Source: Halichondria panicea
Lineage: Eukaryota > Porifera > Demospongiae > Suberitida > Halichondriidae
Direction of reading: 5' to 3'
Length of the DNA: 64,000 nucleotides
Assembly: GCF_963675165.1 (NCBI RefSeq)
Contig: NC_087389.1
Coordinates: 2,204,001 to 2,268,000 of the forward strand
Part shown: piece by piece, positions 219 to 62,600 of the stretch
Layout of the letters: every line of letters begins with the position of its first letter
Numbering within the stretch: position 1 is the stretch's first letter
Translations under genes and position numbers: made by a program
The notes under the pieces: generated by a model
Databases searched by the model: none
What the model saw: only the letters and a program-made list of their open reading frames with translations
What the model was told of the DNA's origin: nothing

Positions 219-12959
<12,741 letters not shown>

Positions 12960-16572: not shown

Positions 16573-19110
16573 ATGGATATGGATGAAGATAGCCACGATG
16601 GAGAACTAGATGATAGCGAAGATTCTGAAGATGAGACACTTACTAAAACACCTCCAGTTTCATTAAACTTGAAGCTTTACTGTGCAACAGATGAGGCCCA
16701 GTCTAGATCTGTTAAAATTGTCACTCCCTGCACACCAAGAACTATTCTAGATGTTAAACTGTGTGTAGAGAACGAGCTCAGCATACCAGCCTGTTGTCAA
16801 GAATTGAGCTTTGAATCTCAGAAGCTGCGAGATTGTGATTCTGTCGAAGTGTTAAAAATTAGAGAAGGGGATACGTTGACAATCAACTATGAAAGTGAAG
16901 GAATGGTTGAGGATGTCAGGGAGATCATCAAAGGAATGAAATCTATGAATCGTATTCTCAGAAAAAAGACGATCAGAAAGTGACTAGAAAATGGCGGTGG
17001 ATGTGATACCGAAATTTCTAATAATCTAGACACAGTTAAAGTTAAAGTTCAGTTACTGGCTTCTGCATACTTTCACCCACCTACCGACCCTAGGAGCAAA
17101 GCTAACCGGTTGTTCTTCGTAAGCAACAACGGCCTTCAGATCATGCACCAACTTCACGTAGAGCTGCTTAGATATCCATGGGACAAATGTGTGCTGGAAA
17201 TGCAGTATCTAGAGCATTCAATTTTAAATGTTCTATGGGATCTTTCGGCATCTTTTTCGATCAGACTGCTGCTGCTGGAAAGACCAACTTTGGAGGCTGT
17301 GATAAAGTCACTAGTTAGAGTAGAAATTCCCGCTAATTCATTTTTTCATGGTCCGATTGGGTCATCATACGAGTACAAGAGAATCACAAGTGAAATGCTA
17401 TACATGGCTGTTGGAGTTGTTAGCAAGTAAGTACTACCTAAGACATCACTAATCAAAAAGAGGTTTATCGCCCACGCTCATAGTAAAACATAAACAACTA
17501 CTACCCATAATTATGCCTCGGTGCGCATGCGCAAGCGAGGTATACGGTAGTGTGTTTTTGTGTGTGTGTGTGTGTGTACGTGTGCATGTGTAGACTGCTA
17601 CAGCTGCTCAAGGATGAATCAAGTGCAAGTAAGAGTTTCTATAGGCTTCTAGTCATGTTTTCTTGGATTTTATTTCGTGGATTTGCAAAATAATGCTTCG
17701 TTCTCGAGTTATGCCTAGTTTTGCTTACTTGGAATACCATTGCAACCTTTTCAGAAGAGCACGTAAGAGTGAGAAGAGAGCTGAAAAGCTCTGCTGATGG
17801 CAACCATTACGCACTTGAACTTTTGGCATTGATCGTTAATTTTTAACAACAATTATGGTCAATCATTACCCACTCTTTGAGTTTGCATGCAGTAAAATAT
17901 TGCAAAAATAGCTATTAGTAGCTTTATAGCTTTGGCATCTCCACCGAGGCATCAACACCTGCGGTGCTTTCATTACTATGGTGGTTATTTTAATATCCAT
18001 TTTCAACTGATAACCACAAACATCAACATGTTAAAATTGCAATACCTACAAACATAATATTTATTATCTAAACACATAGTTTGGCTGAAATCCCTAACTG
18101 TCGAGTGGCAATTGCGTCCAGGAAGGATGTGCTGGATCAACTACTGGCCACACTGACCTGTCCTACCTACACTTACATTGACTCACTGGTGCGTCTGTAG
18201 GGCTACTGTGTCTTGCTTACAGGTGAACACCTTGTACATAGCAATGAGATTATGATAATCAATTGATATAATTATTGTACATACATTATTACAATTAATA
18301 TCATAACTACACGCGCAGACAATCACATGATTATAATTTATATGCATGCAACAACGTTCTCTCTCTATACATACATACATGAACTCACAGCCCTGAAACC
18401 CACCAGTATCTGATTAAAGACAATGTTATCCGCAAGTTTGACAAAGCATGTGACTCTGTCAAGGATCACACTCACATGGACGAACAGCTGCTTAAGTAAG
18501 TCAAACGGTATCTCAACTATGCGTTTGAAAGTCATTATTTCTGTACAGATACTTTTGTTGCGTATTTTATGCTCTACTGCTGTCCACCTCACCGGCCATG
18601 ATCCCAACTCATGCGAAACTACAGATGAAACATGCCATGAAAAACTTTCTAGAGTCAGCTGATTATGAAACAATTAGAGATCACGAGAAAAAGAACGGGT
18701 ACACTTGGACGACTGTTACTCACTTCGTCAAGCTCGTTTACATTCCTAAGCAGAGTTCCCAGTGGTCTATCTGCACTCCAAAGGAGGTCATAGCCGAAAA
18801 CAACGAACTAGAAGATCTCTGCATCGAGACTGGTGTCTTTATTCTACAAAACGTGCTTCTATCCAACGACACTCGAGAGATTCTAAAGGCTGAATCATTG
18901 GTGGACTATATAGTATGCATGCCCTGGCATCTGTCACCGGATACAAAGGCACACGTAAGAGCATGTGCTCTAAGACAGTTTCTAAGCAGCAAAATGCAGT
19001 TACAACCTCCAACGCTTGTTAACCTGGCCAAGGCTAAACTTGCTGTGAGTCATTGTGGGCTAGAGAGAGCAGTGAAAGCCCGAGGCTTGCATGACATTGT
19101 TGCAGCATAG
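16573..19110 (+). pseudogene. Ubiquitin-like/helical-repeat family member A, disabled copy
   Basis: Four exons (about 16573-17426, 18081-18222, 18391-18500, 18549-19110) match the intact gene at 47579-49992 closely, including intron positions. Copy A has an in-frame TGA at 16981 where the intact copy has CGA. It also has a one-base deletion in exon 2 (CTGGTGCGTC against CTGGTAGCGTC). The 17-residue N-terminal repeat region of the intact copy is missing, and homology starts at the acidic DEDSHDGEL segment. Intron 1 holds a 458-bp repeat insertion absent from the intact copy. It ends about 75 bp before the junction with the duplicated Cav segment. A shorter product from downstream ATGs cannot be excluded. 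Confidence 0.85.
17514..17971. mobile_element. TGCCTCGGTGCGCATGCGC repeat family (copy 1)
   Basis: The element starts TGCCTCGGTGCGCATGCGC and ends CGGTGCTTTC, with GCCTCGGTG/CACCGAGGC inverted near the ends. It is flanked by ATTA on both sides. The matching intron of the intact paralogue (near 48845) has a single ATTATTATGG there, an empty site. Other copies are at 39087-39633 and 55914-56403. Confidence 0.85.
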
Positions 19111-23093: not shown

Positions 23094-26000
23094 ATGGACG
23101 TAGTGCCGGCCCTCTCACTGGACGCCATCCCCTATCCCCTGAACGAGCAGTCGCTGATGGACAAGGTGGAGAGCTTGACGGCAGCCATTGCTGAGGCTAA
23201 CGAGGAGAGGGCACAGGCAGCTGAGTATGGGTTGGTGCTGTTGTCAGAGAAACAGGCCCTGAGGAGTCAATACGATGAGCTGAGTGGACTGTACGAAAGC
23301 ACGAAGAGGGAGCTGGAGAACTCAGTCGATGTGAGTCTCTGTTGCACATATAGAGCATTGTATGTAATTTCTTCACATCAGGCAGTTTGTGCTCCATAAG
23401 TTATCTTACTGTAGTACATGATTATATTGAATCATGCATCTTATGTGTGTGCATGCAGGCTATCAAGCAAGTCCAAGCCGACTATGAGAAGAGGCTGAAG
23501 GAGGTGGAGTCACAGAGAGAGCAGCTGCTCGACGAAATGGAGACCAGAGAGACCTCTCTTATAGCAAAGGTGTGAGTGGGTCATCTTTATTGAGTGAATG
23601 TATACCGTACAATGAGTTGAAATTGCATGTGTCAAGGGAATGTCATAAATAATTACGTGTACACACTCATACTTGAAATTGGCAGCCGAGCCATAAACAT
23701 GAACATGCATGCCTGCTGCTCTGTATGAACTGAGAACTGAGACTGTTGTGCATGTTTTAGGTTGACAAGCTGGGGGAGGATATACGGCAACTAGAGAGGA
23801 AGCTGAAGCAGTCTACCTCAGAACAGGAGCACCTTAATGGCCATAACACATTCCTTAATGCTGAACTGGACAGGTGAGCAATGTAAATTAATTATAATTA
23901 TCTCCTGCGTACTACGCTATAATTATTTATCTATACGTGTAGATGCTGTAGAAATTCTAGTTTCTAATACATAATTATACATGTATTTGTAATTACTGTG
24001 TAGACTGTCCCTTATAAACGTGTTCCATTGTTGGCTCGCACCTTGTGTATATTTATGGATACAAGGATAAATTCTTTGTTCTGGCTTGGCCATATTTTAC
24101 TCATGGGTAGTAAATAGCATTGGTTGTTGATTCTGGGATGATCTCATAGTTGTAGTGGTTCTACAGCGGTACTATCGGCAGTAGTAGTTACCATGGGAAC
24201 GGTAGTTGAGTTGGTTGAACAATGAAGCACGAGTGCACCAGTTTGCACTTACTATTAGTACGTAGAAGCAGAAGGAGAAATAACGTATTATTCATTGTCG
24301 CTGCAGGCATAGGAGAGAGTGTGATGTTCTACGAGAGGATAACAGAAGATGGAAGCAAGAACAATTTACAGCTAACAGAGAGACAGATGACATGAAAAAA
24401 TACATTGAAAAGTTGGAAAAGAGAATTCAAAAACTGCTCAAATTTGAAGATGAATGTTCTGTGTTACAAGAAATGAACCAGACGCTGGCTCAAGAGTCTG
24501 AGTCTTTGTCTCATCAGTATGAACTCATTCTAACAGAAAAAGAAGAGCTAGAGAACCAGGCGAAACAGGTAGTGGAGGCACTCAACGAGGAAAGAGAAGC
24601 CAAGTCAATTCTCGAGACCAAACTCCAAGAAGAAGAGATACGTTCTCCGCCCCACCCCAGCTGGGCCATTGAGCGAGAGAGTGCCAGTCCCCCTCTGTTA
24701 TCCAGTAGCAAGAGGAACTCAATTAAGACGACTCCTGATCACACGAGACTCACGTCTCTCTCACCCACCCAGCGTGATGGTAGCTTAGAGCCCAACATGC
24801 AGTCGACACCGTACTCTCCTAAGAGAATGCCTAATTTATTGAGTGAGCTACAAAATTCATTTATGGGAAATGTGGACTCTGCCGAGCTGGAAACATTGCA
24901 GCAAAGGTGCCAGGAAGCTGAAAATACTATTACCTCTCTTCAGAAAGAGAAACTAGTATTGGAAGAGAAGGTTTCATCTTTTTCACTAGAGAAAACTGAA
25001 ACATTTACACGAATTGACAGTGTTAAGGAAGAGTATGCCAAAGCCATTTCCGAGAGGGACACATTGATATCTTCTCTTAAAGAGGATGTGCTCACGAAGG
25101 AGGAAGCCATTGGGCGATTAAGAAATCGACTCAACTCTGCATCAGCTGAGAAATCTTCAAAAGAAATTGAAGTTGAAGGTTTGAAGGACGAACTACAGCA
25201 CATCAAGGAATCATCTGTATGTGAAATGGAGAAAGCACAGAAAGAATACGTTGAAGAGCAGGTGAAAAATGCAGAACTGAGAGGTGAAGTGTCTGTGCTT
25301 GAAGAGCAGCTTGTATTTTTCTCTAACACAATTGAAAAACTCGAGAACATTATTTTCAGCTCACAAACGGAACTGACTTTGATGGCAGACGATCTTCACA
25401 ATCTCCACAAGACAGTGGTCACTCTCGGCTCTGAGAACAAACGTGGAGGGCCATCCCCATCCCCCAATAATCTAGTCGGAAATGACATAGCTCCTAATCT
25501 ATCCAATGAAGATGACAGTCTGAATCCATTCTACTCAATAAAGCTTGTGAAAAGAAAAACATCTGTTCCTGTCCATCACGAAAGCCAATCTTTGTTCGCT
25601 ATTGTCCAGCTTCATCAACAACTCCGTTCAATGAGGCTGCCACTAGAGCATTTTACAAAAACAATGCTCGAAAAATCTCTGGCTCATTCGGCAATCAAAC
25701 GTGTACCTTCAAACCCCACCTCTCCCACACTAGGTGCAGCTGGTGACAAGAAGACTAACCTTGATTTAGAAGCGAGTGTCAACAAATGGAAGGCGAAGCT
25801 TGCTCACAAGATTGAAGAAATCAGCAATCTCCGTGCCATCATGAAGGCTCGATCCACAACCACTGACGTTGCCATCAGCAGTCTGAGAAGCAAGCTAGAG
25901 GGACAGGCTAGAGCCTACCAAACAGAGCTCACCAGACTAAAGCACCAGCTAAAGATGTTGAGGAAAGAGAAAGATGAGCAGCTCAATTTGAGGACCATGT

Positions 26001-26209
26001 ATGCCAAACGTTGCCAAGAGCATGCAAATGAGATCACAAAATTGAAGAGAGACATTGAGAGCATGACTATTCAGTATGAAGATGTGATGATATCGCTCAA
26101 GAAGACCATTCAGCGCAAACTGGAGCTAGCTACTGAGCTGGATGAGTACAGGATGGAGCAAGAGAGACTCCACCTTATTCCCAAACTGTTAGGCTCTTCT
26201 AGAATATAG
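23094..26209 (+). CDS. BICD: Bicaudal-D homologue (dynein/dynactin cargo adaptor)
   Basis: The four exons are 23094-23330, 23459-23569, 23761-23873 and 24307-26209, giving 787 residues (human BICD2 has about 824). The protein is almost all coiled coil. Residues about 35-60 carry the CC1-box region (QAAEYGLVLLSEK), the dynein light-intermediate-chain contact in BICD proteins. The C-terminal block (NLRAIMKARS, RSKLEGQARAYQTEL, LRTMYAKRCQEHANEI, TIQRKLELATELDEY) matches the conserved cargo-binding coiled coil of the family. By family knowledge it links dynein-dynactin to Rab6 vesicles, RNA or nuclear-pore cargo. A serine/proline-rich linker lies near residues 230-300. The large last exon holds about 80 percent of the protein. 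Confidence 0.92.
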
Positions 26210-41295: not shown

Positions 41296-43230
41296 ATGTA
41301 TATGGATATGGTTCACGAGGATATATCTTTGCCTTGTAGATCTAGTTACAACATATTTCTTCATTGCACTACAACAAAGCAATCCGAACAGAAAGTGGTG
41401 AGTTTCGACAACACTCCTCTGAATATTTTGGATGTGAAACGACAAATCGAAAAACGTTTTAGCATTCCAGTTTGTGTGCAAGTCATTGCGTACAATAGTT
41501 GCATCTTAAAAGATGATACCATACTGATAGCACTGAGAATTCGTGACGGGGACACCTTCCATGTGAAATACTTGGAGAAAGGTCATTGCTCTGAGATTGT
41601 TGAAATCATTGATTGGATGAGACTTGTTTTGGCTGGAATTCAGCTTGAGAATCCTTCAGCTACTGTTGACATGAGTTGGGAGCTCAATAATCTGGTCACA
41701 CGAGGTATAAATAATGAGATGATTCAGTCTCTTGCTTTTAAGTATTTTTTTCCGTGGCTTGACCCAGTGAAGTATGTGAACAAGCTCCACTTTGCTTACC
41801 ATGGTGGTGTTGAGATCTTAATGGAGTTGGATGGAGCTTTACTTCAGGAAAAATGGCAGGAAAGGCATATGATATTACAACTCGTTGAATCGTTGTTGTT
41901 GAGAGTCATATGGAATCTTTCAGAAACTTTTCCTCTACGCCGAGCTATAACTAAGAATAAGGGCATTGAGAGATGTATTCAGTCGATGCTTCACTACAAA
42001 CTGGAGGAAGGGAGCCGATTTGAGTATGTAGTATCCAACCATTCATTTGAGGGAGTACTGAGAGATACTATTGTTGGTGGGCTGGGAGTGTTATGCAAGT
42101 AAGCTCATGAGATATCGTTTTGCATGGTGTATTTCTGGATATAAGTATATTCATGGGTTTAATATACAGTCATGTAGGTGCTAGATTTAACTACACTGTT
42201 ATTTCCGTGCAGTTTGAGTGAACTACCAGAGTGTCACTTGGAAATAGCCTCCAACGAAGATGCTTTGGAGCAGATGACTAACATCGGTGCATCACCATAT
42301 CTGCCAATTGATTGCTCGCATCATGTGGTGACCATTTTCCTCTGTCTGGCCCACACTCCTGGAACACATGAGAAGATAAGCAAGCCCAGGTATCTTACAA
42401 AACTGCTGGATGCTCTCAGCATTGAAAGAGATCTGGATGCAGACCAGCTCGATATTGACCGTATACCAGACTGCTCTCACCTTCTTCTCAGGTATTATTA
42501 AAAAAATATTGACATTAATTTTGAGCATTGTTATATATATACCAGTGTTCAAGGCTCACTTCCCGACCAGTTGTTGGGCAAAATTTACAGCTGCACTAAA
42601 AACTGAAATAATTTTATGTGAAACTGCTGTTCCTATAATAATTATGTACGTCATTATAACTAGACGTTTTGCACATGCAGGTATTTTGTCCTCCTATTCT
42701 TGGCTCAAGTGGCTCTAGCGTCACCACAGTGCATCCCTACTGACTTACACCTAACCATCATCGATGAAATGATGTTACTATTGCGATTCACATGCTATGA
42801 GATTATCAGGCGCGGTGAACTGACGCAGAATTATGTGTGGTGTACGTACATACCCTACATCAAGCTTGCCTATATTCCAAGTACCCCGCATATAAACAAT
42901 CCAGCTTGCATTCTACAGGTGTGGAGTTTGGAAATAATCATATTTGCACTTCAAAATATGCTTGGTCGTGAAAATCATAGAGAATTTCTCGTGAAAGAAG
43001 GACTTTTAGATTTTGTTACATGTATGCCACAGTACGTCCCCCCTTCATTGAAATCCCGAGCTACAAACCTGGTGCAAATGGTTGCTTCTTCTCCAGATGT
43101 CCCAGAGGGACCTCCCAAACTGCTGAACTTGGTGAAAGCACGATTAGCTAAAATGCACTTTGGATTGGAGAATGTTCTTTCTATGTCTGTCAGCGAAATT
43201 GTTTCTCAAGCTTTTGCCACCAATTTTTAA
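41296..43230 (+). CDS. Ubiquitin-like/helical-repeat family member C (uncharacterised)
   Basis: The three exons 41296-42098, 42213-42491 and 42681-43230 give 543 residues with intact frame. Residues about 15-95 look like a ubiquitin-like beta-grasp domain (NILDVKRQIEKRF, LRIRDGDTFHVKY). The rest is predicted helical and armadillo-like (VIWNLSETFPLRRAI, LVKARLAKMHFGLENVL). It parallels member B throughout, including NLSELPECHLEIAS against NLAEIPNCRVAIAS, but exon 2 corresponds to two exons in B. It has no signal peptide or membrane segment. I do not recognise a named family. By architecture alone, a scaffold or ubiquitin-pathway role is conceivable but unsupported. The first ATG was chosen; the next in-frame one is at codon 3. 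Confidence 0.75.
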
Positions 43231-43416: not shown

Positions 43417-46400
43417 TCACTTAACAAAATCAGGTGGATTTAATCGTTTAATGAACGTTTCTTCATCATTGAGGCTCCCATATGAACTGGACGAACCAAA
43501 GCTCTCAGCCAATAGCGAGTTGTCAGGGAAGCGGGATTTCTTTCTAATGCCTAGAGGCTTTGTTATGCTCCAACTGGTCACTTTGAATGGGTCGACAGAT
43601 TTGTCCCTTACTGATACATTGATTTCCCCGTCCCGGGACGCGGCAGTCTCTTGCTTCAGATCTTTGTTCATTCTACGGTGAGAAAATGTAGCGATGGATT
43701 GGTGTAAACGAGCCCTATATGAAGTGTAAGTGCAGTCCAGGCTATATGTAAGAAGCTAAGAAGCATACTATTACAACCAGTAGTACAATTTCAGTAATCA
43801 TGCTGCAGTGGTTTCTCAACAAACTGTGGCCACAAAATGTACTAACCTGAAGTAGTTACTAAGGAAAATCCAATAAACCACTGGTGGAAAGGTTGTTATG
43901 TAGATGACGTTTGTGATTAGGGTAAGACTGTGTGGCGAGAAACAATGCAGAATTATTGCATATACTATTGCATGTACAGTAGCGACCTTTTGCTTACCAA
44001 ATCCCTGCACTCCCAACTTCTTCATTATTTCCTCCTTTGATCCACATTAGACTACCCGTTGTCTGAACAAGGTTTACCAATGACAGAAACAAGGCATACC
44101 TATAAAAAGATTTTTTAGCTGCAAGCAAGGGAAAAGTAACATTTAAGGTCAGTACATGAAAACATTAATGTTATTACTTACATGGCAAACTCCAACGCTC
44201 ATGTAGTTTGAACAAGTACATTCCGTACGTAATCAGGTAAGCCTGTGACGATTCAGTACACCAGAATAATTAAAGATATGCATTTCGCTCAACTTACAAA
44301 TGTGAAGAGTATCGATGTAAGAAATAGAAACACCATCCCTCCATGAGTAAAAAAATTGAAGTCATAGCAAGCCAAATGCAATGGTTTTTCATACTCCATC
44401 ACTCCCTGCACAAATATAAAAAACAAATAATATTATGTCATGTACAAGGGCATAGGGCATTGAGGGGGGGGCAGGCGTTCCCATATTAGTTATATATCCA
44501 TAATTATTATTAAGAGTCAGCACGCCCTGCCAACGCCAGAACCCCTCTACTGGCATAAGTTGTCTACGCCCTTGATGTACATGGTATAGGCCTATGCAAA
44601 AAATTAGTACCTCTATGATTGTGAACAGCCCAGCCACTGTTAGAATGATACAAACTGTAACAGCCAACTTGCATTGCTTGTTGTTGTAGAACTCTGCAGA
44701 ATAGAAATTAAATGAGTGTTGTAGTGAGTAGAGAGACTCAGAGGGCGGCTATACATTGAAGCGAGTGGCCCATCCTTATCTAGCCTCGTTCCCAGATCGA
44801 TTTTTTTTTAATAGAACAAAGTTGAAAAATACTAGTTGACGACCTAGTGTTATTTTAGAGACAACGAGGCTTGGGAACGAGGCTAATCCCTATATCATGA
44901 TCAACAATCACTCTGAGCTATGAACATTATACTCTGAATTTGTAGCTCTGCAGTCTGCAGTCCGTAGTTAAAATCTATCATTACAGACCTGAGTCATAAA
45001 CTATGTTGTTAAAAACCAACAGAATAGCGAAGTTGAATAGTAAGTGTGCCGCTGGAGCATAGCGTTGTGCATTGTCTGAAACTAAAGTCTATTTGCGTTG
45101 AGTTCGGAAACCTCTCCGACGTCTGGTGATTCAGAACGATCATTCAGTCAATGTTGCGGACTAGGCTAGACGAGGGGAGTTGAATGGAGGACATAGCACC
45201 CAACAGTACCACTGTGGAGAAGACACTTTTGTTAGAAACCATTGTTGTTGGACTGGGTACACTTACAATGACTATAATTATATTGTGTGTGTATTGCTGT
45301 GTGCCCTACAGCATACAGTTTGAGTGAGCTACCTGAGAGTCACATGGAAATCGCCTCCAATGACGATGCTCTCCACCAGCTGACCTGTATCTCCCTAATG
45401 CCTTCGGTTCGCATCGTATCTCCTCCAATTTTGGTTTGTTCCTCTGTGTATCATACACCCCAGAGACACACAAGTAGATTCGTAAACCTGTCCAGGTGGT
45501 TGCTTTATGCATACAAAATACCTCGATAAGTGCTAGGGAAGAAGACCTCCCCTTGCTCAGGTAAAGTACTGTGCTACGTACCATATCCACATGTATGTAC
45601 AGTAGAACCTCGCTAATCCGGACCCCTTTAACCTCGAAAATCCGGACAAAATGGCAAACTGAAAAAGAGGAGGGGCTGTCAGTAGAATAGAGTACTGCGC
45701 ATGCGCAAGGAAAATTGCTTAGCTGAATCAGCAAAAATTTTATTGATAAACTGCTTAAGACAATGGCCACTGCAAAGAAAACGAAGAGAGAGCTCACAAG
45801 ACTCACTGTATTGGAGAGAAAGTTGAGATAAAGACTATTCTAGCTAGCAGCTTCCCTTCTGGCCACAGTAATATCATAATACATGTACAAAAGTGTCTTC
45901 GTTAATGATATTCATAATCAATTAATGACATCTGTTAATCCGGAAATTTCATGTATTCGGATGGGGTCTGGTCCCGCTCTATTCGGATTAGCGAGGTTCT
46001 ACTGTACATAATAACCACGTCACTATAATACTACCCAGACACCTGAGTCGTAATCGCTATACTCCTGTACATATACAAGCCCAGGCAAAGCTATTATTAT
46101 GTAGCCATATATGGCGATTACTTTCCTGTATAAGAAGAAGTTGTAAGGCAATACCCACATTTAAACATATAGTATCTACCTACCAAGGCATACCGTCACT
46201 TTGTTATGACAATTAATACACTGACAGGCGGGATGGTTATATGGTCTTATTTATGGCTGGAATGCAGCACTTATGCTAATCTCCTAATCAAATGTCACTT
46301 CAGGTTCACCATGGTATTACATATTATTATTACATATTCCTTGCTCTAGTCTCCATGGTATCACCGCAATACACCCCACAAAAGTACCAAAAGCAAATAA

Positions 46401-49400
46401 TCAATCATTGCTGCAAAACGATATAATGCAATAATTATGAAGCTAAACACTGGTATGTGTGGGCTGCCTTACATCAAGTTTGCCTATGTGCCCAACACGC
46501 AGATTGAGGATCCATGGCAAACATTTCAACTACTGAGCTTAGAAGTGTAAAAAGCAGACTTTGCAATGTTATATACATGTATATGCCACAGTACGTCCCC
46601 CCTTCATTGAAATCCTGTAGCTCAGTGCAAATGGTTGCTTCTTCTCCAGACGTCCCAGAGGGACCCTAAACTCGGTGAGCACGATGCACTTTGGTTTAGA
46701 ACATTTTATTTTTAGTGAGAAGTTGAGCCTTGATTATTCGAACCCCGATCATCTGAATTTGGATGAAAGATTCGACCAGGCAAACACCTACTCGCGCATG
46801 CGCATTAAGTGCCCACGTGGTTGTGTTGCTGATTAGCAGAAGTAGTTAGCCTAACATGCAGTGTAGCTTGCTACCTTGTTCTGTCCACTGACTGATGCAT
46901 TATGTCCAAGACTAGTACATTTGTAAGAGATCGTTTGCTGATTTTGCATGCAGAGGCTATTTGAATAATTGATGGGCATGGATCATTATTTTAGAGTCAT
47001 TAATATTTCAGCCATCCGGATGAGGTGGGGACACCAGGTATTCGAGGCTCAACTGTAGTGAGACATTTTTGAATGTTTACATGTACGTGTGAATACATTT
47101 TTGTGGTTGAATTATGGTTGAACTTAGTACTGATGAGTCAGCAATAATTATTAGCAGGTACCTTACTTTAGCTAGCTAGCTAAGCTTGTATTACTACTAT
47201 ATGCTATTCGTGGTAACACCAGGTATTCGAGGCTCAACTGTAGTGTGAATGTTTACGTGTGAATACATTCTTGTGGTTGAATTATGGTTGAACTTAGTAC
47301 TGATGAGTCAACAATATTAGCAAAAAGTAGGTACCTTGCTATAGCTAGCTAGCTAAGCTTGTATTACTACTATATGCTATTCGTGGTAACACCAGGTATT
47401 CGAGGCTCAACTGTAGTGAGACATTTTTTATGTTTACATGTGAATACATTCTTGTGGTTGAATTATAGTCAAACTAAGTACTGATGAGTCAGCAATAATT
47501 TAGCAAAAGTAGGTGGGGTACCTTGTTAGTGATCTAAAGCTATTCAGTCACATAGCTAGCTAGAGCTAGAGCTAGACAATGGGTAACAAACACCCACAAC
47601 CAGGAACCAAGAAGGCAGTACAAGCAGTAGCCGAAAGAGACGAACCAGATCACCCTGAAACTTGTTCTAAAGACCAGAACAGTGAGCCTAACAAAACAGT
47701 TCACCCTGAAGTGTCTTCTAAAGATCAAAACAGTGATCTTGACGAAACAGTTCACCCTGAAGCCACTTCTAAAGACCAAAACAGTGATCCTGACGAAACA
47801 GTTCACCCTGAAGCCACTTCTAAAGACCAGAGCAGTGATCATGACGAAGCAGTTCACACTGAAGAGCTTTCTAAAGACCATAACAATGAGCCCGATGAAG
47901 ATAGCCATGACGGAGAACTAGAGGATCAAGATGATAGCGAAGATTCTGAAGATGAGACACTTACTAAAACACCTCCAGTTTCATTAAACTTGAAGCTTTA
48001 CTGTGCAACAGATGAGGTCCGGTCTAGATCTGTTAAAATTGTCACTCCCTGCACACCAATAACTATTCTAGATGTTAAACTATGTGTAGAGAACGAGCTC
48101 AGCATACCAGCCTGTTGTCAAGAATTGAGCTTTGAATCTCAGAAGCTGCGAGATTGTGATTCTGTCGAAGTGTTAAAAATTAGAGAAGGGGATACGTTGA
48201 CAATCAACTATGAAAGTGAAGGAATGGTTGAGGATGTCAGGGAGATCATCAAGGGAATGAAATCTATGAATCGTTTTCTCAGAAAAAAGACTATCAGAAA
48301 GCGACTAGAAAATGGCAGTGGATGTGATACCGAAATTTCTAATAATCTAGACACAGTTCAAGTTGAGTCACTGGCTTCTGCATACTTTCACCCATCTGCC
48401 GACCCTAGGAGCAAAGCTAACCGGTTGTTCTTCGTAAGCAACAACGGCCTTCAGATCATGCACCAACTTCACGCAGAGCTGCTTAGATATCCATGGGACA
48501 AATGTGTGCTGGAAATGCAGTATCTAGAGCATTCAATTTTAAGAGTTCTATGGAATCTTTCGGCAGCTTTTTCAATCAGACTGCTACTGCTGGAAAGACC
48601 AACTTTGGAGGCTGTGATAAAGTCACTAGTTAGAGTAGAAATTCCCGCTAATTCATTCTTTCAAGGTCCGATTGGGTCATCATACGAGTACAAGAGAATC
48701 ACAAGTGAAATGCTCTACAAAGCTGTTGGAACTATTGGCAAGTAAGTACTACCTAAGACATCACTAATCAGAAAGAGGTTTATCGCCCACACTCATACAT
48801 AATATTAGTACAAAAGCATAAACAACAACTATTACCCATAATTATTATGGTGGTTATTTTAATATCCATTTTCAACTGATACCACAAACATCAACACGTT
48901 AAAATTGCAATACCTACAAACATAATATTTACTGTCTAAACACATAGTTTGGCTGAAATCCCTAACTGTCGAGTGGCAATTGCGTCCAGGAAGGATGTGC
49001 TGGATCAACTACTGGCCACACTGACCAGTCCTACCTACACCTACATTGCCTCACTGGTAGCGTCTGCAGGGCTACTGTGTCTTGCTTACAGGTGAACACC
49101 TTGTACTATACACATAGCAATTGCGTTATGACACTTACAGCACAATGAGACTATGATAATTAATTGACATAATTATTGTACAAATACAATTAATAATTAT
49201 CATAACTACACGCGCAGACAATCACATGATTATATATGCAACAACGTTCTCTCTCTATATATGAACTCACAGCCCTGAAACCCACCAGTATCTAATTAAA
49301 GACAATGTGATCCGCAAGTTCGACAAAGCATGTGACTCTGTCAAGCATCACACTCACATGGACGAACAGCTGCTTAAGTAAGTCAAACGGTATCTCAACT

Positions 49401-51887
49401 ATGCTTTTGAAAGTCAGTATTTCTGTACAGATACTTTCGTTGCGTGTTTTATGCTCTACTGCTGTCCACCTCACCGGCCATGATCCCAACTCATGCGAAA
49501 CTACAGATGAAACATGCCATGAAAAACTTTCTAGAGTCAGCTGATTATGAAACAATTAGAGAACACGAGAAAAAGAAAGGGTACATTTGGTCGACTGTTG
49601 CTCACTTTGTCAAGCTCGTTTACATTCCTAAGCAGAGTTCCCAGTGGTCTATCTGCACTCCGAAGGAGGTCATAGCCGAAAACAACGAACTAGAAGATCT
49701 CTGCATTGAGGCTGGTGTCTTTAGTCTACAAAACGTGCTTCTATCCAATGACACTCGAGAGATTCTAAAGGCTGAATCATTGGTGGACTATATAGTATGC
49801 ATGCCCTGGCATCTGTCACCGGATACAAAGGCACACGTAAGAGCATGTGCTCTAAGACAGTTTCTAAGCAGCAAGATGCAGTTACAACCTCCAACGCTTG
49901 TTAACCTGGCCAAGGCTAAACTTGCTGTGAGTCATTGTGGGCTGGAGAGAGTAGTGAAAGCCAGAGGCTTGCATGACATTGTTGCAGCATAAGCCATTAA
50001 TGTGTGTTCGTGTGCATTTTTAACACACTCATTTATTTTTCTTATAACCATGCATACAGATGGTAATTTTTTGTTTTCTTCTTTCACATAATGTTATTGT
50101 ACAATTTGCATTAAAATGCTTTACGCTTTTAGGAGCATCAATCTATTGGCTATAATTAACTGATGCTAAACGACAACTAAGAAAATCAACCAACCATGCA
50201 GATTTGTACGTACATATATAGCATTTAATTCAACTCAATTAACTCACTGAAGAAGAGACCGAAGACAACAACACATAGCTCAGTCATGAGGATAGAGCCC
50301 CTCAGAAGTGTGTGCAGAGCCTGCATGTGAAATCGAACCAATTTGTTAGGAATGTATAAAAGTCTTAATGATTGACAGATATAAAAATGACAACATGTAT
50401 CAGATCCAAACATGCATTGTGCATTACGTTATACGTTATTGAAAATGTCACTGTGGCCAAGGCTATTACATGGCACATGTCTACAAATGTACACCCATAC
50501 ATGTACCTTAGCAGCAACAGTGTAGTATCCGATGCACATGGAGACCACTCCATACAGGCAGCTCATTGTCGGGATGACAAACACCTGCACCGACAATAAT
50601 GCAATGAATATTGATACACAAAATTCACGATACATTAATAGTTCAAGATACATAGTTATGCTAAGTGGATTCAGTGAATACTGAGTCAAAATTTGCACCA
50701 ACACATTGTCTAGGTATTGAATTTCAGTAGTGCATTATACATGTAGAATATAGTTATAGTACAGAATTTCACTGAATGTACATTAATTGTCTCTCTACGC
50801 TACAGTCATCATTCTCATCACTGGGATCATTGAAAACACAGGCATCACAGGACTAAGATTTAATCAAAACACAACACATAGAACACGTACATGCATATAC
50901 ACCATATACCACAAAACAAGCAATAGAAATGTACTAACCATAAAGTAGAGGATCCTGAAGAGAGCCACGCTACCCTGCAGCTTGCGCACCATGGCAACCA
51001 ACTGAATGAGCAGGAAGCAGAGGAACAAGGCACTCAGAACCAGCAGAACCAGGTCGTACACCCGTACACTGTGAGAAAGGGGTTATAAAAATAAACAACT
51101 CTTCCATGATTATAATAACTACTCATGTGTCTTAGATGATATGATTATACCAAGGTTTAGCTGTGTCCCTAATTAGACATTATAAAGCTACCTGGTTATA
51201 GAGACCACAATTTTATTGTAAGAGGCCATCAGACCTATTCTCATCAAATAATACATGGAAAATTAATCGACCCAGCAGTAACAAAACAGTACCTGACAGT
51301 TTGTGGCAAATGGATGATACAAACGACTATAACAATGTGGTCAAAGGGAGAGAGCAATATTGATTGCTCGTTGTAAAAGTGACAGCCAATCACATTATTA
51401 GCTTAAACGCAGGTATTGTAAAGGGCAATGTCATCTTGGTACCTACACAGGAGTGAAGTGAAATTCTCTATAATCGCATGTTGTCCTACTATTCACTGTA
51501 ATTCGTACAGTGATTAATCGCGTATCAGTAATTGCACGTCGTCAAGAATGACGTGCAATTACGCGGCTACTGAAACTGCAGCTAAAAATGTCCTTAAAAC
51601 TGCGATTAACAATCAATAGCGCTATAGCATGGCTACTCGTGCTATTAATCCCATATTGCACTCTTAGCCATACTAGTAATTATACTAATTATCATTACAG
51701 TAACTCACAGAGTGTTATCGACTCTCCAGCTGAGCACTTGTACACAGAAGGGGAAGACGATGCAAGAGGAGTTGGTGAGATTGGTATCATTACAGCCTCC
51801 TAGTTCCAACTTTGGTGGTGGGAACAGTATGTGAGTGTACTCACAGTCACGATTAATGAAGCACCAGGATTGGTTCTTACTCTCCAT
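43417..51887 (-). CDS. TPRA1: TPRA1 (transmembrane protein, adipocyte-associated 1; GPR175) orthologue
   Basis: The eleven exons are 51841-51887, 50939-51068, 50507-50584, 50248-50320, 44989-45075, 44611-44693, 44298-44405, 44182-44242, 43998-44118, 43847-43927 and 43417-43672. They give 374 residues, almost the human length of 373. The protein has seven hydrophobic segments. Diagnostic stretches are VRVYDLVLLVLSALFLCFLL near the N-terminus, DFNFFTHGG, and LHERWSLPSKKSFYRYA, which aligns with KERISLPSRRSFYVYA of vertebrate TPRA1. It is a putative orphan seven-pass receptor of uncertain function. Intron 4 is 5.2 kb, very large for this window, and contains an intact opposite-strand gene (47579-49992). 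The first donor (GTACAC at 51840) was set by phase and is the weakest join. Confidence 0.86.
44781..44885. mobile_element. Small foldback element, TAGCCTCGTTCCCAG family (copy 2)
   Basis: The arms TAGCCTCGTTCCCAG and TTGGGAACGAGGCTA flank an AT-rich loop. It is related to 6782-6899 and lies in TPRA1 intron 5. Confidence 0.8.
45213..46700 (+). pseudogene. Ubiquitin-like/helical-repeat family member D, degraded
   Basis: Fragments in the same order as member C are visible. These are an exon 1 tail (LLLETIVVGLGTL, about 45216-45266), exon 2 start SLSELPESHMEIASNDDALHQ (from 45319), and exon 3 pieces near 46341 (VSPQYTP), 46451 (PYIKFAYVPNT) and 46583 (MPQYVPPSLKS, then VASSPDVPEGP). Stops and frameshifts separate them, and a pogo-like element (45600-46014) interrupts the region. 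It lies in TPRA1 intron 4. Confidence 0.8.
45600..46014. mobile_element. Pogo-like MITE, CAGTAGAACCTCGCTAATCC ends
   Basis: The terminal repeats CAGTAGAACCTCGCTAATCC and GGATTAGCGAGGTTCTACTG are near-perfect, with TA on both sides. At 415 bp it has no transposase frame. It is inserted in pseudogene D. Confidence 0.9.
46721..47058. mobile_element. Pogo-like MITE, GTTGAGCCTTGATTATTCG ends
   Basis: The left end GTTGAGCCTTGATTATTCGA faces the right end TATTCGAGGCTCAACTG, followed by TA. The interior includes GCGCATGCGCATTAAG, as in other pogo-like copies here. Confidence 0.75.
47034..47530. repeat. Tandem repeat, about 175-185-bp unit (2.7 copies)
   Basis: Units begin CCAGGTATTCGAGGCTCAAC at 47034, 47219 and 47392 and contain TGATGAGTCAGCAATAAT and GCTAGCTAGCTAAGCTTG. 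The first bases of each unit are the right end of the MITE at 46721-47058, so the array grew from a MITE end plus flank. It ends about 50 bp before the start codon of gene B. Confidence 0.9.
47579..49992 (+). CDS. Ubiquitin-like/helical-repeat family member B (intact, nested in TPRA1 intron 4)
   Basis: The four exons 47579-48741, 48948-49091, 49273-49377 and 49431-49992 give 657 residues in one frame. Residues about 25-115 hold 17-residue repeats (TSKDQNSDPDETVHPEA; 51-bp DNA period) rich in D/E/S. An acidic patch follows (DDSEDSEDE). Residues about 133-215 are a ubiquitin-like fold (SVKIVTPCTPITILDVKLC, LKIREGDTLTINYESEG). The remainder is helical and armadillo-like (LRVLWNLSAAFSIRLLLLE, LVDYIVCMPWHLSP). 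It is near-identical to pseudogene A and distantly similar to C. No named family was recognised and no catalytic motif is seen. It runs opposite to its host gene TPRA1, between TPRA1 exons 4 and 5. Confidence 0.83.
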
Positions 51888-59653: not shown

Positions 59654-62600
59654 ATGTCTAGAACACTGCTCCGTGCTGTCTCCACCTTTGGTGTAATTAG
59701 GGTAGCTGCTTTTAGAGGCTCATCTGTACTACAGCAAAGATGCTATACCCCTGGATCTGCCCTCAATGTCACTGTGGAGCACCTGCAGGATGAGCATACT
59801 GGTATTATAATTTTACCTTTTAATTATAGCATAAACCGCCATACAAACCTCTTATGGAAAATTATGCTGGGTGGGCGCGAAATGTCCACGTAATTCCAAC
59901 AGCATATATGGGGTCCTGATTGCTCCTGAATGCAGCCTGTAGTGTACACACTCTACTAGCAATTAATTTATAAGTTTATAAGTGATTGTGGGCCAGGGCT
60001 GCTATACAATTGATTGAGTAGTCGGTACATGTAGTACATAACTTGTGAATTTCGAAAATTGTGTTCTCAGTACTAGCTGGGAACTCCATGCCTATGGAAT
60101 TATTTTGGGCGTACAGTTATATGTGCTTATAGTTGACAATTTATCCCTGCAGAGATTGCAATCCAGTAGCTAATTTGATTATTCTTTTCTTCACAGGGGT
60201 TTCAGTGATTGCCTTCAACAGACCTGAAGCATTGAATGCAATGAGCAGAAAGTTTGTGAGTGAGGTAAAACCTATTCATCTTGTGTGCCAGGTTAATAAA
60301 TTGTGAATACTCTCTTCCATCAGTTTGATGATGCCCTTGGCTCCCTCCGATTCAACCGCAATGTTCGAGTGATCATTCTCAGGAGTGTGGTTCCGGGAAT
60401 TTTTTGTGCTGGTGCTGACTTGAAGGAGAGGAAGACAATCCCACCCGAGGATGTGGGGCCATTGGTTGCTAAGGGGCGGAGGATCATTGGAGACCTCAGC
60501 AGCATGCCTATGCCCGTCATCACCGCCCTAGATGGAGGGGCATATGGAGGAGGACTGGAGATGGCCCTGGCAACAGATATAAGGATTGCAGGTATAAGGG
60601 ATAATTACACTTTTAATACTGTACTCATCATTTGCTTTCTTCTTTTAGCTGACTCTGCAAAAATGGGTCTCACTGAAACGCGTCTTGCTATTATCCCCGG
60701 TGGTGGTAAGTGCAATAGATTGCCTGATTGCAACACTTTAGTTGGTGCCATGGTGGCTGGTTAATCATTGTTTTGTACATTGTTTTGTACATACAGTATA
60801 ACCCCGATATCTGAACACCTTGGTTCTAGAGGCAGGCCGGATAACTAATTGTGCCGGATAATCGAATAGATAACCATGCCTTGATCCACCCACTTAATTG
60901 ATAAACAACAGTGCCACATGGTTGTTTGCGTGCATGCGCAGAAGATAAGCAGGCCTGTCTTGATAGTAACAGCTGCAATGCGCATGCGCATTTAAGGGAC
61001 ACGCCCATTTTTTGAATTATTAAAAAGAAAATTGTCAAGGCAAGCCGGATAATCATAATGGAGGGCGGGATAATCGAGATTCTACTATGTACTGTGTAAT
61101 TCGAAGTAACATTCTAGCTCCGCCCAACTACTTCTTGGCACACCCCAATATTATTATTGGATAGAGCTGACCAAAGTGATGAACATGCGTAACGAGGTTG
61201 CACTCTTAGTGTATCCTAGTTTAGCTACTTGTCAATTCTCAGGAGCCACAGTATAGAGAGACTATTTTGTATGATAGATGAACTCTGACCCTTTTCAAGG
61301 CTATAGCTAATATAATAACTGAAAAGTTGGCAGGAGATGCACAGGGTGTTGTGTGTTTCCAGGATCACTAGGAGAGTTAAATGTGTGCATGCCTAGAGCC
61401 TACATCAAGAGGTCATGCCATGTCACTGTTGAGCCCAGATATAGATATAGAGAGACTATTATTTTTGTATGATAGATGAACTCTGACCCTTTTCAATGCT
61501 ATAGCTAAATAACTGAAAAGTTGGCAGGAGATGTTCAGGGTGTTGTGTGTTTCCAGGATCACTAGGAGAGTTAAATGTGTGCCTAGAGCCTACATCAAGA
61601 GGTCATGCCATGTCACTGTTGAGAAGAGTCTTGTAGGAGAGCATTCAATAGCTACAATGAGCCTAAGCAGAGCTCCAGTAAACAGCATCGACTTGGCACT
61701 TGCTCAGCAGTTCAATGAGACTCTTAAGAGCATACATCAATCAGGAGACTGTGATGCCTTGGTTATAAAATCATGTATTCCCAAAGTGTTCTGTGCTGGC
61801 CTGGATCTTGCTGAGTTGTATCAACCGTCAAAATCCCGTTTGGAAGAGTTCTGGAGGGAGATTCAAGAGTTGTGGCTTGGTCTGTATTCATCCAAGCTGC
61901 CGACTGTAGCTGCCATTAACGGACACTGCCTTGCTGGAGGATGCATCATTGCCTCTTCATGTGACTATCGGATTGCAGCTAAAGGGGACTATTCGATTGG
62001 TGTGATTGCGGCTAAGGTCGGTGTAATAGCTCCACCGTGGTTTCTGAAGATGTTAGCTCATCTAATTGGGCAACGAATGACAGAGCTTGCTCTCCAACAA
62101 GGACGACTATTTACTCCCGATAATGCCTTAAAAATCGGACTTGTGGATAAAGTGTGTGATCCTAGTGATTTGAAAGAACAAACTCTAGAGGCAGTGTCTC
62201 CATTTCTGAGTGTGTCCCAAGAATCACGTTCAACAATGAAGTTGTTTATGCGATCTGAACTCATTGAATCCTTCAAAGCTTTAAGAGATAGAGAGGTTTT
62301 AACCTTTATCAGCTTTATCATGGCAGATTCAGTACAAGAAAAACTTGGACATTACATACAAAAACTAAATCAGAAGTAATAATACAGTTGATATTGATTT
62401 ATGTGTATTTTTCTACTATTTACTATAGGGGGAACCCAGCGTTTGCCACGGCTGGTGGGTATTGGTAAAGCCAAAGAACTCATTTACTCTGCCAAAGTAG
62501 TGTCTGGCACCGAAGCAGCAGACATAGGACTTGCTGAGCATGTGGTCCCACAGAATGAGAATTCAGACGCTGCATACCAGAGAGCATTACAGTTAGCTAC

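Follow-up and report, generated by a model that had tools for sequence, protein, structure and literature searches.

A small gene family joining a ubiquitin-like domain to a probably armadillo-type helical region in the sponge Halichondria panicea

Gene Cluster and Gene Models

The window, i.e., the whole stretch of DNA that was analyzed, comprises 64,000 nt of Halichondria panicea (GCF_963675165.1, NC_087389.1, positions 2,204,001-2,268,000, forward strand). It contains four members of a gene family coding for a ubiquitin-like (Ubl) domain and a helical region, which were designated A, B, C, and D. An earlier note on this DNA, made from the sequence alone, had placed four members in the same orientation inside 35 kb, and this was confirmed: all of them lie on the plus strand, with 33.4 kb from the start of A to the end of B. 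The four-copy family, with two intact and two broken members, is confirmed as an observation. The following features were assigned to the cluster:

16579..19110, + strand: A, nearly identical to B but disabled (in-frame TGA in exon 1, exon 2 damaged, N-terminal tail missing)
17515..17971, + strand: insertion of an interspersed repeat in the first intron of A (the B intron is without it)
41296..43230, + strand: gene C, intact, 3 exons, 543 aa (GT-AG introns; intron columns common to B and to the paralogs E and F, see below)
41296-42098, 42213-42491, 42681-43230, + strand: exons of gene C (GT-AG)
about 45142..46711, + strand: D, a degraded copy of C between C and B (tblastn and blastn fragments)
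45594..46010, no strand: transposon-like element inside D with perfect 27-nt terminal inverted repeats
47579..49992, + strand: gene B, intact, 4 exons, 657 aa (continuous frame, GT-AG introns)
47579-48741, 48948-49091, 49273-49377, 49431-49992, + strand: exons of gene B (introns read as GT-AG)
47639..47889, + strand: acidic coding tandem repeat of 17 aa (51 bp), 4.9 copies, in the N-terminal tail of B (TRF)

The gene models of B and C are established by sequence, and both genes were found to be intact, as had been proposed, with multi-exon models of 657 and 543 aa and GT-AG introns. They are very divergent from each other, as the earlier note had also stated, with 28% identity in exon 1 (E=9.3e-31), which is beyond chance, and 39% in the last exon. 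For the acidic N-terminal tail of B no counterpart was found in C, in the paralog E or in the part of A matching B. Just 5′ of the start codon of B, a 173-bp tandem repeat with 2.4 copies was observed at 47084-47514.

The disabled member A is located 31 kb upstream of B. Its exon 1 is 92% identical to residues 104-388 of B and carries one in-frame TGA, its last exon is 95% identical to that of B, and about the first 105 codons of B are missing. The match of A to exon 2 of B ends early. The similarity covers exons, introns and some of the 3′ flank, and the intron and 3′ pieces compared show 95-97% identity over aligned bases. A is thus near-identical to B and yet disabled, which agrees with the earlier description. 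The repeat inserted in its first intron has at least 93 matches in the genome (40 scored of 3024 first-look candidates). D, which had been described as degraded, consists only of broken fragments of C with stops and frame changes.

The gene neighborhood of the cluster is ordinary. Eight other frames of the window were scanned, of which one, at 24284-26206, matches Bicaudal-D (PF09730, E=7.3e-12) and two, on the same strand at 60300-62379, match enoyl-CoA hydratase/isomerase. Furthermore, one tRNA-Gln gene was found at 9450-9521 on the minus strand.

The Ubiquitin-Like Domain

Two Ubl domains were located in the intact genes:

41341..41580, + strand: Ubl domain of C, about residues 16-95 (PF00240; phmmer against PDB)
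47975..48223, + strand: Ubl domain of B, residues 133-215 (PF00240; family profile against PDB ubiquitins)

PF00240 matches three of the four paralogs B, C, E, and F at E<=10. C reaches 27.4 bits, which is over the curated cut-off of 25.4, and B aligns to the same model region at 19.5 bits (E=8.5e-4), which is under it. The Ubl span proposed earlier for B, residues 133-215, encloses the stretch matched by Pfam (162-209), and the sequence evidence favors a Ubl domain at this position. In PDB, the family profile picks up ubiquitins as well as single ubiquitin-type domains such as DSK2 (6.8e-6), and a phmmer search using just C recovers designed ubiquitins at 1e-5 and DSK2 at 3e-4. Pfam, family profile and phmmer thus bear out the claim of a ubiquitin-like domain, and as far as sequence can tell, the small domain is of ubiquitin type in B and C as well as in the profile of the family. 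Used alone against PDB, the Ubl segment of E gave no matches and that of F gave four, none of them significant (E 0.09-1.6), which include one DSK2, the IQ and ubiquitin-like domain-containing protein 8j07 (E=1.5) and 2daf (FLJ35834, E=0.09). The latter is presumably IQUB, a Ubl. Since these single-segment searches were empty or weak, the Ubl assignment of E and F rests mainly on the alignment.

The ubiquitin core is largely kept. Out of 12 core positions of ubiquitin that were compared, 9 are occupied by I, L, V or F in all four paralogs, the others being positions 15, 17, and 23. I36, P37, and K27 are invariant across the four. Other positions differ: the residue at I44 is S, A, S or R and that at V70 is N, K, T or Q, so that both are polar or small in every paralog, and L71 is replaced by Y in all of them. 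Only C retains H68 and only F retains K48, and K63 is present in none. Of the hydrophobic patch, the comparison covers positions 44, 68, and 70.

A C-terminal GG tail was not found, and in B, C, and E the chain continues past the beta-grasp in the same exon, so the domain is a fixed part of the protein. A conjugated ubiquitin-like modifier was rejected on the same grounds, as there is neither a GG end nor a chain end after the beta-grasp.

The Helical Half

The second half of the protein was assigned as follows:

48224..49989, + strand: helical half of B, probably of armadillo type, with its introns (profile comparison; low-confidence all-helix model of the last exon of C)

No significant match to this half was found in Pfam, NCBIfam or by PDB sequence search. 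Below significance, Pfam gives WAPL (E=0.059) and DUF2238 (E=0.11), in one member each, and no Arm match appears in the four members at E<=10 within the HMMER filters. Enzyme domains were likewise absent among significant matches in Pfam and NCBIfam.

The armadillo assignment derives from hhalign. The helical profile of the four members, aligned to an ARM stretch from this genome, gave a score of 29.7 and E=0.0018 with an HH-suite probability of only 14.8%. None of 100 shuffles of the ARM stretch reached this score, the highest being 19.6. Five ARM/ELMO targets were tried in all, and the scores of the remaining four, 11.6-17.5, fall among those of the shuffles. Four controls against the same helical profile scored 11.4-14.4, and two armadillo proteins of the same genome, compared as single sequences, scored 16.2.

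Against PDB, the helical profile gave 11 matches, led by Sec4 at E=0.68. Five of them form the series 6s9l-6s9p (E 2.2-3.8), of which one entry is named a designed Armadillo repeat protein; they fall on the same stretch and stand behind unrelated matches. An HMM of a single repeat, built from the Arm repeats of the genome, gave no clear family signal, but is uninformative, as its positive control, an APC-like protein, was also without a useful match. APC-like, ANKAR-like and importin-like are names that we assume for the Arm-matching loci L058, L059, L061, and L062.

For structure prediction with AlphaFold, exon-wise alignments of the window sequences with three rows each were used. The model of C exon 1 (mean pLDDT 38.5) shows strand-strand-helix followed by helices, and that of the last exon of C (46.7) is all helix. 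The models are poor because of too few sequences and, at this mean pLDDT, were not counted as evidence for the fold. With the poor exon-1 model, none of 211 Foldseek matches reached E<=0.001; among the best 50 of the 211 are several armadillo domains of APC, at E 0.65 or higher, and one Ubl of tubulin chaperone E (E 1.3).

That the helical part is of armadillo type is likely, being supported by the profile comparison but not proven. Of the armadillo-like region claimed by the earlier note, the helical character is supported, and the armadillo type is moderately backed by the ARM comparison at 14.8% probability.

Paralogs, Introns, and Selection

Using the exons of B and C and full-length E and F as queries, the family was found at five loci in the genome (A, B, C, E, and F), which is a lower bound. 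Four further places with E 4-9 do not belong to the family and were taken as chance. D was detected only by the search of the window and is absent from these five loci, so further decayed copies could be missed. The two paralogs outside the window are:

C1:14938023-14940345: E, 518 aa (genome search, hand-built model)
C4:955070-957717, minus strand: F, 624 aa (genome search, hand-built model)

Identity to B is 32% for C, 25% for E, and 21% for F. Alignment columns 407 and 505 each hold a phase-2 intron in all four paralogs, which indicates that the family is old. B and F have an additional phase-2 intron at columns 457 and 461, i.e., within four columns of each other, and F carries three more besides. 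The junctions of E and F carry some bias, as their models were drawn up manually with splice signals and homology as guides. The divergent B, C, E, and F with their common introns and the near-identical A and B support the old as well as recent duplications that had been suggested. A scan of viral contigs with one peptide pattern revealed no relative.

Between A and B, dS is 0.064 and dN is 0.029 over 498 codons, giving a dN/dS of 0.46 (bootstrap 0.25-0.81). By exon, the ratio is 0.67 in exon 1, 0.08 in exon 3 (34 codons), and 0.34 in exon 4. This suggests that constraint acted during much of the divergence of A and B, and that the loss of A came late. The dN/dS of B and C, which the earlier note had put forward as a check, was computed, but is uninformative due to saturation of synonymous sites (pS 0.80); these are saturated between B and F as well (pS 0.76). 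The ratios of 0.51 for B-E and 0.47 for C-E, at a dS near 2, are a rough sign of constraint.

Comparison With Known Proteins

The earlier note could not name the combination of a ubiquitin-like fold with helical repeats. According to PMC6318265, Ubl plus armadillo is a known build, as in both ELMO and FHOD the armadillo repeats come after a ubiquitin-fold domain, ELMO acting as a scaffold. There, the RBD of ELMO2 is described as ubiquitin-like, as forming an interface with the armadillo region (ARR), which FHOD1 shows too, as resembling FHOD1 and as binding active RhoG. For FHOD, a ubiquitin superfold preceding the armadillo repeats is given in PMC6318265 and PMC11589041.

The B/C family shares the order of ubiquitin-fold domain and armadillo, the latter being probable here, with the arrangement RBD-ARR-ELMO-PH outlined for ELMO1-3, but has no ELMO_ARM, ELMO or PH match. 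A separate ELMO_ARM gene is present in the same genome (C13:3468758), and no significant similarity was found between the family and the ELMO of this genome. Membership in the ELMO family was rejected due to the missing ELMO_ARM and ELMO domains and the separate ELMO gene.

In FHOD formins, a ubiquitin-superfold GBD stands before the armadillo part, like the Ubl before the helical half in the B/C family, which however has no FH2 or other formin match. FHOD membership was rejected as well, as no formin GBD or FH2 was found and a separate Formin_GBD_N match exists at C9:527284. We take Formin_GBD_N to be of the FHOD type.

Ubls of the ubiquilin/DSK2 type are, beside ubiquitin itself, among the PDB sequence relatives of the family Ubl. 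These proteins differ from the B/C family, which lacks a UBA domain and is changed at the I44 and V70 positions. The similarity to IQUB consists of the non-significant matches of the F Ubl to 8j07 and 2daf, and the family has no IQ motif match in Pfam.

Proposed Role and Alternative Explanations

The reading that we hold, as somewhat better than an even bet, is that of a small, old family of intracellular, non-catalytic Ubl–ARM scaffold proteins. The chain would run from an optional tail through a built-in ubiquitin-like domain into an armadillo-type helical solenoid. By analogy to the RBD and ARR of ELMO, the Ubl would pack beside the solenoid as one unit, which might bind another protein, perhaps a small GTPase or the tail of a receptor. 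Duplicates arise locally and then decay.

It is about evenly balanced whether the family is already on record among animal proteins, under a name or as uncharacterized. This is compatible with scaffold proteins and touches only their novelty. Old paralogs with common introns make relatives in other animals likely, but the helical half is without a significant Pfam match, and among the titles and abstract openings of the papers listed, no description of such a Ubl–helical family was found.

An adaptor of the proteasome/ubiquitin pathway is improbable. Such a protein would dock with its Ubl on proteasome receptors or on UBA/UIM and hold a client with its helical part, as DSK2 shuttles do, and the Ubls of DSK2 and ubiquilin are indeed among the sequence relatives in PDB. 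I44 and V70 serve Ubl docking, and an I44-type hydrophobic patch marks the UBL-UBA shuttles, but all four paralogs carry polar or small residues there, and neither a UBA nor another ubiquitin-pathway domain was found by Pfam in the four members. A proteasome-docking role of the Ubl is therefore unlikely, judged by these residues.

An immune or self-recognition cluster under birth-and-death selection, a speculation of the earlier note to which two broken members out of four and the strong divergence of B and C would fit, is very unlikely and was not supported, as the loci are few (five by genome search, a lower bound, plus D), the divergence of A and B looks constrained (dN/dS 0.46), Pfam reveals no immune domain and ordinary duplication and loss would give the same picture.

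The members of the B/C family are most plausibly scaffolds of the ELMO/FHOD sort, by analogy of domain order. More tentatively, and with odds that we put clearly against it, the family could represent an undescribed third class of Ubl–ARM supramodule beside ELMO and FHOD, which would be old in animals and still gaining and losing copies in this lineage; that the ubiquitin core was kept while the binding face was rewritten, and that the tyrosine found at position 71 in every paralog may serve to anchor the Ubl on the armadillo region, belong to the same joint and doubtful claim. Unless the fold is confirmed, the locus would be a small, unremarkable cluster of paralogs, two of them pseudogenes. 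If it is confirmed, a separate family would be added to the proteins carrying a ubiquitin fold on an armadillo solenoid, and this would provide another case for asking how often the Ubl–armadillo pairing arose in animals.
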